A stretch of DNA of 52,648 nucleotides from positions 1 to 52,648 of the forward strand of contig CAIOCZ010000127.1 in the NCBI GenBank assembly GCA_903856805.1. Direction: 5' to 3'. This document shows positions 12,603 through 51,664 of this stretch, piece by piece (position 1 is the first letter of the stretch; each line of letters opens with the position of its first letter). The notes below the pieces were generated by a model. It saw nothing but the letters and a program-made list of their open reading frames with translations. It searched no databases and was not told where the DNA came from. Source of the stretch: an uncultured cyanobacterium (lineage in GTDB: Bacteria > Cyanobacteriota > Cyanobacteriia > PCC-6307 > Cyanobiaceae). Both the position numbers and the translations under genes were made by a program.

Positions 12603-13325
12603 ATGCGGCTTCGACTTCTTCCTTCCATAGCATGCTCAGCCGCAACGGCCCTTGCTGTGCATAGCCTGCCGGCCCAGGCCTTTCCCTCGGGCTCGGTCAA
12701 CCTCTTCCAGCTTGACCGCCATGGCCTCAGAGTCCTTCCGATCCGTGGACTGCCCTCCACTGCTGAAACGCTGATGGCTGCAGAGCCAGCACCTGCGGCC
12801 AGCCAGCCCTTGGCAGCCGCCCCTAACGCAGCAGTGCCGGATGTCAGCTTTGTCGAGCAGCCAGGTGAATCTTTCGTCGTCGAATATACCAAGCCACTCC
12901 CCAAAGATATTGCAGGTGACCTCGTTATTCAACAGCGATCCTTGGATCCTTCGGGCGGTCCTGTCCTAAAGCGCTTGCCAATTAATTCTCCCGATATCAC
13001 AATTTCCCCCGATCGTCTCAGCCTCTCGATCAACCACGGCATTCCTTTGCAGCCAGGTCAAACGGTCTGTGTTCTCCTCCCCCAAGTTGATGGAGCCTCC
13101 ATTCCCACAGTTAAATCCCCCTGCTGCTTTGCTCCTAAGGCTGTAGCCCTCGTCCCCGAACAACCTCCAGTCCAGCCCGTTGCCCCTGCCGCCTCTCCCG
13201 CCCAGTTCCCCTGGTGGATTCCAGTCGCGGCAGCAGCAGTGGTTGGAATCGTGATTTGGGCTGCCACGGATAGCAATGGGGGAAGCTCGACAACAACATG
13301 CTCCCGTTCTCTCACATCGTGCTGA
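12603..13325 (+). CDS. unrecognised exported protein with a C-terminal membrane anchor
   Basis: From the ATG at 12603 the product has 240 residues. The N-terminus MRLRLLPSIACSAATALAVH followed by SLPAQAF looks like a Sec signal peptide cleaved after AQA. The middle contains a beta-rich stretch with ESFVVEYTKPLPKDIAGDLVI and PGQTVCVLLPQ, then a Pro/Ala-rich linker (QPPVQPVAPAASPA). A single hydrophobic helix follows (FPWWIPVAAAAVVGIVIWAA), with a short Ser/Thr/Cys tail. This order (signal, soluble domain, linker, anchor) suggests a cell-envelope protein held in the membrane by its C-terminus. I see no catalytic motif and no family match. It lies between two other exported proteins and may share their function. 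Confidence 0.65.
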   Translation: MRLRLLPSIACSAATALAVHSLPAQAFPSGSVNLFQLDRHGLRVLPIRGLPSTAETLMAAEPAPAASQPLAAAPNAAVPDVSFVEQPGESFVVEYTKPLPKDIAGDLVIQQRSLDPSGGPVLKRLPINSPDITISPDRLSLSINHGIPLQPGQTVCVLLPQVDGASIPTVKSPCCFAPKAVALVPEQPPVQPVAPAASPAQFPWWIPVAAAAVVGIVIWAATDSNGGSSTTTCSRSLTSC

Positions 13326-29269: not shown

Positions 29270-30595
29270 GTGGCCCTTCGTCTTGCTTGCTCCGGTTTGC
29301 CGTTGCGCCTGGGTCTGGCCCTGGGGTTGACCACTGCTCTGGCGCAGCCCATGGGAGTGGGAGCCCTCGCCCCCTCCCCTGTGGTGCGGGTGCTGCTGCA
29401 GGAGGCCCCCAGCCTTGATCTGGCCGCCAGCGGGCCCACCTCCCTGCGCCTGGAGGACAGCCTTGGCCGCACCTTGCTGGAAGTGCGCCCCGGCGACCGT
29501 GTGCTCCTCCGGGGGGACGGCAGTGGCTTCATTGCTGAACTGCTTCAGGGTGATGGCCGTGACCGTCAACTAAGCCTGGCGGCCCGGGAATTGTGGGTGG
29601 AAGCCGAAGCGAACGGTGGCCTGAGTTCCCTGGTCATGTTGCGCCAGCACCGCTATCGGGGCCGGCTGCAGGTGCGGGCCAGCGGGGAGGCTCTGCAGGC
29701 GATCAACCACGTCGACCTCGAGAGCTATCTCACAAGCGTGGTGGGCAGCGAGATGCCCGCCAGCTGGCCCCTGGCGGCGTTGCGCGCCCAGGCAGTCGCC
29801 GCCAGGACCTATGCCCTCACCCAACGGCGTCCCAGCTCGGCCTTCGACCTCCAGGCCAGTGTGGCCAGCCAGATGTACAAGGGGGTGGAGGCCGAGACGG
29901 ACTCCACCCGCGAGGCGGTGGCCAGCACCCGCGCCCAGGTCCTGATGCACGGCAACGGACTGATCAATGCCGTGTTCCACAGCAGCAGCGGCGGGATGAC
30001 CGAAAACAGTGGCGAACTGTGGAGCCGCCAGCTGCCCTACCTGGTGAGCGTTCCCGACTTCGACGAGAACAGCCCGATGCGGCAATGGGAGAAGCGCTTC
30101 GATCCAGGCCAGCTACGGCAGTCGTTTCCCGAAACCGGTGGCGTCAACAGCATCGATGTGCTCCTGGCTTCCAGCTCGGGCCGGATTCGACAGGCACGGG
30201 TGAACGGTCCGTCCGGCAGCCTCGTGCTCACTGGTACCGACCTGCGCAAGCGCCTAGGACTCCGCAGCACGATGGTGCGTTTTCAATTCCAGCTCCCAGG
30301 TCCCGTGACCCCGACGGCAGGGCCTCCGCCCCCGCCGCCCCTGGAGGCCAGCGTGGTGGATTCCGCCAGCGGCAGCGGCGGCCCGCCGGCCCCCCTGGGG
30401 GACACGCCGCCGCGATCAAGGCCTTCGAGCCTGGGGGCCGCCCCGATCCTGGTGGCCCTGGGCCATGGCTTTGGTCATGGCGTGGGCATGAGCCAATGGG
30501 GGGCCTACGGCATGGCCCAGCGCGGTCAGGACTATGCCCAGATCCTCAGCCACTACTACCGAGGGGCCGAGTTGCGGCCCTTTGCGCTGCCCTGA
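29270..30595 (+). CDS. SpoIID/LytB-domain protein (probable amidase enhancer or glycosylase-like)
   Basis: Secreted protein of 441 residues from a GTG at 29270 (a TTG at 29258 adds four). The N-terminus is a signal peptide ([18 protein letters not shown]). The SpoIID domain spans about 130-280: [53 protein letters not shown] and [17 protein letters not shown] Pro-rich linker leads to the conserved C-terminal motif [20 protein letters not shown]. In Bacillus SpoIID is a lytic transglycosylase; many cyanobacteria encode related proteins of unclear role in the cell wall. It lies divergent from rnz, 147 bp away. Confidence 0.9.
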
Positions 30596-30617
30596 TCGCC
30601 GGCAGCAGTAGCGTTAT

Positions 30618-31436
30618 TTGACCCGCACCCCCGGCGTGAGTTCCGGAGCGTTCCCTCGCCAGCCCCTGGCCCAGCCCGGGATTGACCAGCGTCTGGCGGT
30701 GGACGTCTTGCCGGATGCAGACGCGGTGGCGGCGCGGGTGGCCGAACTGCTGCTGCATGAGCGCCAACAGCGGCCGCAACGGCCCCTGGGCTTGGCCACC
30801 GGCCGCACGATGGAGCCCGTGTATGCGGCCCTGGCCACCCGCTGGGCGGCCCTGTCAGGGGCCGAACGCCAGCGGCTTGCCAAGGGGTGGCAGAGCTTCA
30901 ACCTGGACGAATACGTGGGCCTCGGTCGCCACGATCCCGGGTCCTTTGCGGCCGAGATTGAGGGCCGGCTGGTGGAGCCCCTGGGGTTGAATTGGACGCG
31001 CGTGGGCTTGCCCAATGGCCTGGCGCCCGATCCCGTTGCCGAAGCCCACCGCTACGGCGCCTCAGTCCAGGCTGCAGGGGGCATCGGCTTGCAATTGCTG
31101 GGCTTGGGCCTCAATGGCCACGTGGGTTTCAACGAACCCCCCTGTGAGGCCCACCAACCCTGTCACGCGCTCCGTCTGTCTTCCGACACCCGAGCGGCCA
31201 ACGCGGGCGCCTTCGGCGGGGTGATCAGCGCCGTGCCCGAGAGGGCGATCACGCTCGGTATGGCTGAGATCCTGGCGGCCGAGCGCATCGTGCTTGTGGT
31301 CACCGGCCCCACCAAGGCGAGGGTGTTGCAGCGCCTGCTGAACGAACCCCCGAACCGGGAGCTGCCGGCCAGTTGGCTCCAGCGACACCCGTCCACCCTG
31401 GTGATCGTCGATGAGGCCGCCTGGAACGGCGGCTGA
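30618..31436 (+). CDS. nagB: glucosamine-6-phosphate deaminase
   Basis: Converts glucosamine 6-phosphate to fructose 6-phosphate and ammonia. The product has 272 residues from a TTG at 30618; a GTG at 30636 is possible. PLGLATGRTMEPVYAAL is the phosphate loop. FNLDEYVGLGRHDPGSF holds the catalytic aspartate and LGLGLNGHVGFNEPPCEAH the catalytic His/Glu. ERAITLGMAEILAAERIVLV closes the fold. The last residues EAAWNGG are encoded inside a long palindrome (31412-31468) and match the end of YebC exactly. It follows the SpoIID gene by 22 bp and converges with yebC. Confidence 0.92.
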   Translation: MTRTPGVSSGAFPRQPLAQPGIDQRLAVDVLPDADAVAARVAELLLHERQQRPQRPLGLATGRTMEPVYAALATRWAALSGAERQRLAKGWQSFNLDEYVGLGRHDPGSFAAEIEGRLVEPLGLNWTRVGLPNGLAPDPVAEAHRYGASVQAAGGIGLQLLGLGLNGHVGFNEPPCEAHQPCHALRLSSDTRAANAGAFGGVISAVPERAITLGMAEILAAERIVLVVTGPTKARVLQRLLNEPPNRELPASWLQRHPSTLVIVDEAAWNGG

Positions 31437-31468
31437 AACCGTTTCAGCCGCCGTTCCAGGCGGCCTCA
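31412..31468. repeat. perfect 28-bp-arm palindrome joining the 3' ends of nagB and yebC
   Basis: The arms 31412-31439 and 31441-31468 are exact inverse complements, around a single base at 31440. The left arm encodes the C-terminal EAAWNGG and stop of nagB; the right arm, read on the other strand, encodes the same EAAWNGG and stop of yebC with identical codons. The stops are 7 bases apart. Neither side has a U-tract, so it does not look like a standard terminator. Confidence 0.97.
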
Positions 31469-32223
31469 AACAGGTCGTCTTCAGCCTCCAGATTCGCCGT
31501 GACACTGCGCACGTCTTCAAGCTCGTCAATCGCATCCAGCATCCTCAGGCAGGACCGCAGGCTGTCTGGATCCTCAAGGCGACAAGGGCTGGCGGCAATC
31601 CAGCGATGCTCCCAACTCAGAACCGGCAATCCCTGGCGGCGCAGGCCATCCTGCAGAGCTTCCAGGTCGGCATAGGGAGCGATGACGTCGGCGCCTTCCC
31701 CATCGACGCTGTAGCTCAGCACCGACGGGCCTCCAGCTTCCTCCAGGGCCAGCAACTGCTCCAGCAGTTCCTCCTCCTCCAGGCCGGCCTGGTCGAGGCG
31801 CGCCACCGAGCGCTGCTCGAAGAGATAGCTGACGCAGCCGGTTTCTCCGAGGTTGCCGCCATGTTTATTGAAGGCCAGGCGCAGGTCAGCGGCGGTGCGA
31901 TTGCGATTGTCCGTGAACGCCTCGATTAGGACTGCCACACCGCCGGCTCCATAGCCCTCATAGCGGATCGATTCGAACTGATCTCCGTCTCCCCCACCCT
32001 GGCCGGAGCCCTTGGCGATCGCCCGTTCGATATTGGCGTTGGGAACGCCTGCCGCCTTGGCTTTTTCAATCGCCGTACGCAACTGGAAGTTGCCCGCTGG
32101 ATCGGCCCCTCCCCGGGCCGCCACCGTGATCTCCCGCCCCAAACGGGTGAACACCGCCCCCCGCTTGGCATCCACCACCGCCTTTGTGCGCTTGATCTGG
32201 GCCCATTTACTGTGGCCGGCCAT
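31444..32223 (-). CDS. yebC: YebC/PmpR (TACO1) family protein
   Basis: The product has 259 residues. [20 protein letters not shown] is the family start, followed by [60 protein letters not shown] and [20 protein letters not shown]. Members were annotated as transcription regulators, but mitochondrial TACO1 and bacterial YebC have also been tied to translation, especially of proline stretches. The C-terminal EAAWNGG comes from the palindrome shared with nagB. It is followed by a 62-bp gap to truB in the upstream direction, containing a repeated TTCAACCCG motif. Confidence 0.94.
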
Positions 32224-32285
32224 CGGAATGAGGAGAGAATCAATGGGGGGAGGAAGAGGAACCGCAGCGGTTCAACCCGGGCCGT

Positions 32286-33230
32286 TCAACCCGCGGCATT
32301 GAACACCAGTCGGGGGCGCAACAGTCCACCTCCATCGGCCAGGGCAATGCCGGCCAGGATGCCATCCACCCCAATGATCGCAACCGCCTGATCCACCCCC
32401 AAGGGCCCCTGGGCCTCCAGGGGCCGCCCACAGCGCCAGGAATGCAGCTGGCCAGGCTCGAGGAGCTGGCGGGGGAGAGACCCCAGGGCCTGGAGGGGAT
32501 CCAGCAACGGGGGAGGGGGGGCCAGATCCAACCGGGCCAGGGGCACCGCCTGGGTGAGGTCGAAGCCGAGCGCCGCGGTGCGCCTCAGCTGCGCCAGGGC
32601 ACCACCACAGCCGAGGGCCTCTCCCAGGTCCCTGGCAAGGGCGCGGATGTAGGTGCCGGCGGAGCACCGAACCGCCAGTTCTAAGCGTCCACGGGCTCCG
32701 TCCCAACCAAGCAGCTCCAGGCTCTCGATCACGATGGGCCTGGGGGCCAGGGCGATGGTTTCCCCCCGCCGTGCCCGCACGTAGGCGCGCTCGCCATCGA
32801 CGTGAACCGCTGACACCTGGGGCGGCCGCTGCAGCACAGTCCCCCGCCAGGGGGCGAGGAGCTCCTCCAGCTGCTCCAGGCTCAAGGGAGGGACGGGGCA
32901 CCGTTCCAGCACCTCCCCCTCCAGGTCGTCCGTGCTGGTTCTCACCCCAAGCTGGACGACGCCGCTGTAGGCCTTATCACCAACCAGATAGGGCAGCAAA
33001 CGCGTCGCCGGCCCAATGGCAATCGGCAGGACTCCGGTGACGGCCGGATCCAGGGTGCCGCCATGGCCGACGCGACGGAGGCCGTAGGCACGTCGAACCT
33101 GGCTGACGCAGGTATGGGAGGTGGGGCCAGCAGGCTTATCGACCACCAAAAAACCCCAGGGATCGGGGGGGAGAACTGCCTCCGGTCCCTGGGCACTCAT
33201 TGGGTCGGGCGACAGCCTGGAAGGATCCAT
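32286..33230 (-). CDS. truB: tRNA pseudouridine(55) synthase TruB
   Basis: Makes pseudouridine 55 in the T-arm of tRNAs. The product has 314 residues from the ATG at 33230; a second ATG at 33200 is equally plausible. GFLVVDKPAGPTSHTCVSQV is the start motif, and RVGHGGTLDPAVTGVLPIAI carries the catalytic aspartate. DKAYSGVVQLGVRTSTDDLE and CSAGTYIRALARDLGEALGC are further family motifs. A C-terminal PUA-like domain is present (ALGSLPRQLLEPGQL). It lies between yebC and the ribosomal genes rpmA-rplU on the same strand. Confidence 0.95.
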   Translation of the reverse strand: MDPSRLSPDPMSAQGPEAVLPPDPWGFLVVDKPAGPTSHTCVSQVRRAYGLRRVGHGGTLDPAVTGVLPIAIGPATRLLPYLVGDKAYSGVVQLGVRTSTDDLEGEVLERCPVPPLSLEQLEELLAPWRGTVLQRPPQVSAVHVDGERAYVRARRGETIALAPRPIVIESLELLGWDGARGRLELAVRCSAGTYIRALARDLGEALGCGGALAQLRRTAALGFDLTQAVPLARLDLAPPPPLLDPLQALGSLPRQLLEPGQLHSWRCGRPLEAQGPLGVDQAVAIIGVDGILAGIALADGGGLLRPRLVFNAAG

Positions 33231-50955: not shown

Positions 50956-51664
50956 GCTTCACCAGATCCCGCACCCCCGGGGTCCCATCGACGATCTCAC
51001 CGACCAGGACCTGGTCGGTGAGATTGACGAACAGGCCGTTCTCAAGCACGCCCGGCAGGTTGTTGATTTCTTTCTCCAGGGTCACAGGATCGGTGATGCC
51101 TCCGGCGAACTTCACATCCAGCACCAGATTTCCTTGATCGGTCACCACGGGGCCGGCCTTACGGACCGCCATCCGGAGCTGGGCCTCACCCCCCAAGGCG
51201 CCCAGCTGACCTTGCACCTGGCGCCAGGCCCCCGGCAGCACCTCCACCGGCAACAGAAAACCGAGGTTGAGGGTGTCCACCAACTTGGTGCTATCCACCA
51301 CCACCACAAAACGATCCGCACGGCGGGCCACCAGCTTTTCCTGCACGTGGCAGGCTCCACCGCCCTTAATCAAATGGAACGCGGGATCCACCTCATCGGC
51401 ACCGTCGATCGCCAGGTCAATGCGATCAATGGCGTTGAGGCTCCTGAGGGGGATCCCCAGCTCCGCGGCTAACACCTCCCCTTGAAACGAGGTGGTGACC
51501 CCGACGATGTCGGCAAGCTCCCCACTGCGGAGCTTGGCGCCCAAGCCCTGAATCATCAGGGCCGCCGTGGAGCCTGAGCCCAAGCCAACCACCATGCCGT
51601 CGCGAATCTGCTCGACAGCGGCTGCGGCCACCGCCTGCTTCATGCGATCCTGCAGATCCGACAT
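50951..51664 (-). CDS. rpiA: ribose-5-phosphate isomerase A
   Basis: Interconverts ribose 5-phosphate and ribulose 5-phosphate in the Calvin cycle and pentose-phosphate pathway. The product has 237 residues from the ATG at 51664 (51679 would add five). Motifs: [17 protein letters not shown] (phosphate), [20 protein letters not shown] (catalytic aspartate region), [13 protein letters not shown] (catalytic lysine nearby) and [11 protein letters not shown]. The family usually has KGGGGA at the third motif; here it is KGGGACH, a small variation. It is downstream of the Deg protease on the same strand and converges with hisD. Confidence 0.95.

Follow-up and report, generated by a model that had tools for sequence, protein, structure and literature searches.

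A perfect 57-bp palindrome across the convergent ends of a nagB-like gene and yebC in an uncultured cyanobacterium, probably left by a template switch

Results

The nagB-like/yebC junction

The window analysed here, that is, the whole stretch of 52,648 nucleotides of contig CAIOCZ010000127.1 (assembly GCA_903856805.1, an uncultured cyanobacterium of the Cyanobiaceae), contains two convergent genes whose last codons lie in a single palindrome:

30618-31436, plus strand: nagB-like gene of the glucosamine-6-phosphate isomerase/deaminase family; C-terminus VIVDEAAWNGG; start codon TTG according to the ORF tool
31444-32223, minus strand: yebC (YebC/PmpR/TACO1 family); C-terminus EAAWNGG
31412-31468: perfect palindrome of 57 bp, two 28-bp arms and a 1-bp spacer, 100% complementary
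31412-31439, plus strand: left arm, comprising the end of the nagB-like gene from the last base of a D codon through its final 7 codons and the TGA stop, followed by AAC
31440, no strand: central base of the palindrome, a single C on the plus strand
31441-31468, minus strand: right arm, comprising the end of yebC from the last base of an F codon through its final 7 codons and the TGA stop, followed by AAC; the likelier rewritten copy
31437-31443, no strand: 7-bp spacer AACCGTT between both stop codons, within the palindrome

A recheck of positions 31412-31468 confirmed the perfect palindrome with 28-bp arms around one base that the original prediction had described. The open reading frames on the plus (nagB-like) and minus (yebC) strands likewise bear out its claim that both convergent proteins end in EAAWNGG with the same codons; beyond these 7 shared C-terminal residues, the matching bases continue past the stops (AAC/GTT). 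Pairing is complete within the arms (28/28) and drops to 4/20 just outside (12/41 over a longer stretch), which gives the palindrome sharp edges.

As for the gene names first proposed, yebC stands, with a score above the NCBIfam cut-off (276.9 versus 243 bits), while plain nagB does not. The latter protein is placed by PF01182 and falls under the curated NCBIfam cut-offs of the nagB models (e.g., 150.8 versus 236.9 bits); therefore, "nagB-like, PF01182 family" is the safer name.

Chance expectation and other convergent gene pairs

From base composition alone, about 1.6e-9 perfect 28-bp arms with a spacer of 0-8 are expected in 3.0 Mb, roughly one genome. An own-genome sample of 530 kb, made up of the window and 40 further stretches totalling 477.8 kb, covers about 16% of the genome; 30 order-5 Markov simulations of this sample produced no arm longer than 15. 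An independent convergence of both C-termini could draw on the tails of relatives, which are alanine-rich in a similar register (DxAAL in nagB, EAxL in yebC) and use GC-rich codons, but it is at odds with codons that are identical throughout and with the identical bases beyond the stops. We consider the probability of chance or convergence to be negligible. A chance origin of the 57-bp palindrome is thus excluded in practice, as the original prediction had argued.

In the 530-kb sample, long palindromes at convergent ends were not seen as a habit of this genome. Among the 59 convergent pairs called there by a crude ORF finder, the other 58 do not exceed an 8-bp arm or one shared terminal residue, versus 7 residues here, and 103 control pairs from six relatives, called in the same manner, show maxima of a 9-bp arm and 2 shared residues.

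The junction in related genomes

YebC is present in 54 of the 60 genomes searched, and 29 of the 30 yebC loci returned carry a convergent nagB-like gene, located no more than 400 bp away in 27 of them, source genome included. Another 55 yebC loci were added from named records of Cyanobium/Synechococcus and some more distant organisms, partly the same genomes. The combined set yielded 64 non-redundant yebC loci, comprising 49 junctions with a nagB-like gene within 200 bp, 6 loci without nagB and 9 with a larger gap. Perfect arms do not exceed 8 bp at any of the remaining 48 junctions.

In the tree of nagB plus yebC, the nearest relatives (L036, L039 and L040) lie at 0.44-0.54 substitutions per site; the group of four has a support of 0.87, and the pairing with L039 has none (0.03). 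A contig scan retrieved no closer strain, the full-length YebC relatives reaching at most 83% identity among the best 80 of 505. A yebC segment at 92% occurs in L085 (a Cyanobium sp. CACIAM 14 record), where the yebC match is, however, split in two. G014:C2:99652-100424 has a similarly split yebC match, and in both cases the split suggests a frameshift or an error of sequencing.

The words common to both tails measure 5-11 nt in 46 relatives (8 nt or less in 42 of the 46), and the longest is only 6-7 nt in the three nearest, a short seed, with CCGCCCT being common to the two tails of L039. Over the last 24 nt of both tails, these 46 relatives have a mean of 11 identical positions and a maximum of 15, versus 24 here. 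A less symmetric form of the site, with a short inverted repeat, is therefore present in relatives, all of them distant from the source genome. EAAWNGG on both proteins with diverged codons, the outcome that the original prediction had named as contrary to its reading, was not seen in relatives.

A small separate case of a palindrome-shared tail occurs in 5 of the first 30 loci (L016, L019, L024, L026 and L030). In these, the nagB stop overlaps that of yebC in TCAGCTGA, itself part of TGCTCAGCTGAGCA, and LS forms the C-terminus of each protein.

With regard to which gene end served as the template, the tails of relatives differ between the two families. In nagB tails, an NG end occurs in 5/57, a GG end in 5/57 and W among the last five residues in 2/57; each of these three features is found in 0/63 yebC tails. 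N in the last five residues is present in 8/57 nagB and 4/63 yebC tails, and a final G is about equally frequent in both (32/57 and 31/63, respectively). Since residues like those of EAAWNGG occur in nagB tails and not in yebC tails, the nagB end would more probably be the template and the yebC end the product.

Mobile element or artefact

A mobile or repeated palindromic element of the REP/MITE type, inserted at the junction, would explain a palindromic site at such a place. However, a search for the 24-base arm core located only its own two sites in the genome (up to 3 mismatches) and no paired copy in 399 other genomes of the family (up to 2 mismatches). Each arm is also an in-frame gene end with a start like that of the family tails (EA/EAA), and an inserted element is very improbable. 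Three of these 399 genomes (G011, G021 and G029) hold one single, unpaired core match at 2 mismatches, with the same word in all three, and the core has no exact match in viral contigs. With no further copy in the genome and no paired copy in the 399 family genomes, a dispersed element was rejected.

One of the arms could also have been written by an error of amplification or assembly, either an inverted chimera or a fold-back. The source genome is a draft of 185 contigs, and chimeras are known in strand-displacement amplification, according to the available text of PMC9484634. Against this, the genes on both flanks are intact, frames and stops are kept, and the site lies well inside the 52.6-kb contig; moreover, a fold-back chimera would normally run on into an inverted copy of the first gene. 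An assembly or library artefact is consequently an unlikely source of the palindrome.

Other palindromes in the source genome

Six distinct perfect palindromes with arms of at least 13 bp and a spacer of 0-1 were counted in the 530-kb sample (seven copies, one palindrome being repeated on contig C80), compared with 3 in 1.6 Mb from ten other genomes (p = 0.0098 with the window included). Since the window was chosen for its palindrome, it was also left out of the comparison, which then gave 4 in 0.48 Mb versus 3 in 1.6 Mb for arms of at least 13 bp (p = 0.054) and 3 versus 1 for arms of at least 15 bp (p = 0.040). The excess of short-spacer palindromes in the source genome is, without the window, marginal. 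No excess was seen for arms of at least 13 bp with a spacer of 2-8 (2 here versus 4 in 1.2 Mb plus 3 in 0.4 Mb of controls), nor for arms of at least 10 bp with a spacer of 0-8 (23 in 0.53 Mb here versus 116 in 1.6 Mb of controls, mostly richer in G+C). Three of the sites in coding sequence were compared with those of relatives:

Window 50988-51030: quasi-palindrome in the last codons of rpiA, near the convergent junction with hisD; 21-nt arms at 90%, inner 15-bp arms perfect, 1-nt spacer
L142:8155-8193 (contig C100 of the source genome, G000): perfect palindrome of 39 bp inside gpsA; 19-bp arms, 1-nt spacer
L130:15213-15244 (contig C130 of the same genome): perfect palindrome of 32 bp, 16-bp arms, at the extreme C-terminus of a UbiD-family gene and into its stop codon

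The rpiA site is imperfect in 29 of 29 relatives aligned (9-14 of 15 pairs, two of them having 14), the gpsA site is imperfect in the 29 relatives aligned (7-16 of 19 pairs), and the ubiD site is so in all 8 loci, out of 29, where an alignment was possible (4-10 of 16 pairs). This pattern fits what would be expected of corrected quasi-palindromes and of a recurrent process, although the comparison illustrates more than it proves, because the sites were picked for being perfect here.

Another palindrome site, L148, lies in a CPBP-protease-like gene (weak matches). Contig C80 (13332 bp) carries the same 38-bp perfect palindrome near both ends (L124:42-79 and 13266-13303), in sequence that is inverted between the contig ends, as in a mobile element or an assembly break.

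SbcCD in the source genome and the genus

SbcCD is a nuclease that cleaves palindrome hairpins, for which the available text of PMC4245961 gives an in vitro lower size limit at palindromes of 20-36 bp; the 57-bp site is above this limit. SbcD (TIGR00619) scores above its cut-off in 26 of 42 genomes of the genus, and in the source genome it is represented by one partial match of 39 bits, in a protein whose SbcD/Mre11-type matches are all weak. SbcC (TIGR00618) exceeds its cut-off in 0/42 genus genomes and 1/14 controls, and its presence was judged by partial matches, none of them above the cut-off: these pass 100 bits in 28/42 genomes, the best in the source genome being 25.9. Neither SbcC nor SbcD is recognisable in 14 of the 42 genomes, namely the source and 13 of the 41 others, some of these assemblies being incomplete, and the absence may be a loss common to a lineage. 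XseA (ExoVII) is present in the source genome and above the cut-off in 41/42.

Palindromes with arms of at least 13 bp and a spacer of 0-1 number 2 in 0.6 Mb from three SbcCD-carrying genomes and 1 in 1.0 Mb from seven others without SbcCD, against 6 distinct sites in 0.53 Mb here. SbcCD loss as the sole cause is thus unsupported: the other genomes without SbcCD show no palindrome excess in the samples, and therefore the absence is a permissive factor at most. All four distinct sites of at least 36 bp with a spacer of 0-1 (3 here and 1 in G027) are in genomes without SbcCD, a number too small to test.

The predicted RNA hairpin

The site is predicted to fold in RNA into a GC-rich hairpin of 27 bp with -65.6 kcal/mol (z = -9.6 versus shuffles), the most stable of the 49 non-redundant junctions on either strand, the next being -53.3. 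Each stop codon is within the stem, which extends outwards to 32 nt beyond the stop. The lack of a U-tract, noted in the original prediction, holds: no terminator-like site (hairpin plus T-run) was found on either strand of 30500-32400, and the flanks contain no T-run. The missing U-tract and the stop codons in the stem together argue against an ordinary terminator.

Discussion

The palindrome at the nagB-like/yebC junction is real, private among the genomes examined and recent-looking. Its best explanation, and in our judgement a probable one, is a recent replication template switch (quasi-palindrome correction). In such a switch, a reverse-complement copy of one gene end would have overwritten the end of the gene facing it, and an inverted repeat that had been short and imperfect around both stops would have become the perfect 57-bp palindrome. 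This origin is best supported because the palindrome is sharply bounded, is absent from all relatives examined and showed no dispersed copy, and because the gene ends of relatives share short words (mostly 5-8 nt) and do not have the perfect form of other coding palindromes of this genome. The inverted templating put forward in the original prediction is thereby supported on comparative grounds.

It was probably a single event, with the nagB-like gene probably as donor and yebC as the rewritten end; the assignment is a statistical lean, derived from the composition of the family tails, at about two to one or slightly better. The palindrome may also have been built in several steps, given that the nearest relatives are already so far away. 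Both C-terminal tails are variable and would tolerate change, and what happened to them looks like an otherwise neutral change.

Van Noort is said to have written on quasipalindrome correction in 2003. The mechanism is already known, and what is new is a case that spans two convergent genes: a literature search, limited in terms and collection, showed among the entries listed no report of a palindrome of template-switch origin that spans the stops of a convergent gene pair. In the available text of PMC7202029, quasi-palindrome mutation in E. coli likewise converts an imperfect inverted repeat into a perfect palindrome by copying of the nascent strand, and an 18-bp reporter quasi-palindrome indicates that template switching works at short repeats. 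Those reporters, however, concern one gene and few changed bases, whereas the present case, known by comparison only, involves a 28-bp tract, two genes, both stops and a shared protein end.

Template switching in yeast coding genes, as far as the available text of PMC8604942 goes, similarly homogenises arms in coding DNA with several amino-acid changes per event, and arms of 4-5 bp lengthen to 11-16 bp (in one event, from 5 bp to 16 bp). There, events were counted inside single genes, no arm in Table 1 exceeds 16 bp and the main text does not use the word "convergent", in contrast to the two genes and 28 bp described here. A single event giving a perfect hairpin has also been presented as an origin of RNA hairpins, although in the accessible part of PMC8794818 these belong to RNA genes, while here the hairpin consists of two protein-coding ends. 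Finally, the mitochondria of Nematomorpha also carry perfect inverted repeats in coding sequence; those described in the available portion of PMC6649704 are many, reach 284 bp and code for conserved regions, unlike the single site in two variable tails reported here.

It could be argued instead that selection has kept the palindrome as a two-sided RNA 3'-end element, whose 27-bp hairpin halts 3'-5' exonucleases, serves as a cleavage site for RNase III or aids termination both ways. The exceptional stability of the predicted fold is in line with this notion, as is the fact that trimming to the outer end of the hairpin would spare the whole reading frame; in addition, Cyanobacteria are without Rho, and canonical terminators account for a minority of ends (available text of PMC13289151). 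On the other hand, the site has neither a U-tract nor a terminator-like match, translating ribosomes would have to open a hairpin that contains the stops, and the short arms in the 48 other junctions and the 58 other convergent pairs of the own-genome sample offer no parallel. Furthermore, the defined ends of S. elongatus that are without U-tracts are, in the same source, broadly without strong structure. We therefore regard maintenance by selection as rather unlikely.

A secondary effect on RNA is nevertheless possible under the template-switch origin: the predicted hairpin could block 3'-5' decay just past both frames or, as suggested in the original prediction, be a target of RNase III or stall converging polymerases. 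Blocking of decay is conceivable because Cyanobacteria have no Rho and only 22% of the transcription units of S. elongatus resemble canonical intrinsic termination (PMC13289151, text available). Inverted repeats at gene 3' ends are also found in E. coli, among gene-end repeats and intrinsic terminators (PMC6060812, text available); in contrast to that survey, the present repeat has no U-tract, holds stop codons inside its stem and is not conserved.

Our findings thus provide a clean and long example of template switching across two convergent stop codons, earlier ones being well described within single genes. If it was one event, it would have placed a shared C-terminal peptide on two unrelated proteins together with a 27-bp hairpin that ends both mRNAs. 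A broader reading, which we put forward tentatively and hold to be doubtful, is that in a lineage without SbcCD template switching may leave perfect coding palindromes at a frequency sufficient for protein ends to be rewritten and, where stops converge, could confer in one step the same C-terminus on two unrelated proteins, with the two-sided RNA hairpin as a by-product. The locus offers a testable case for the joint origin of long hairpins and new protein tails, and for the question whether the absence of SbcCD lets such palindromes persist.
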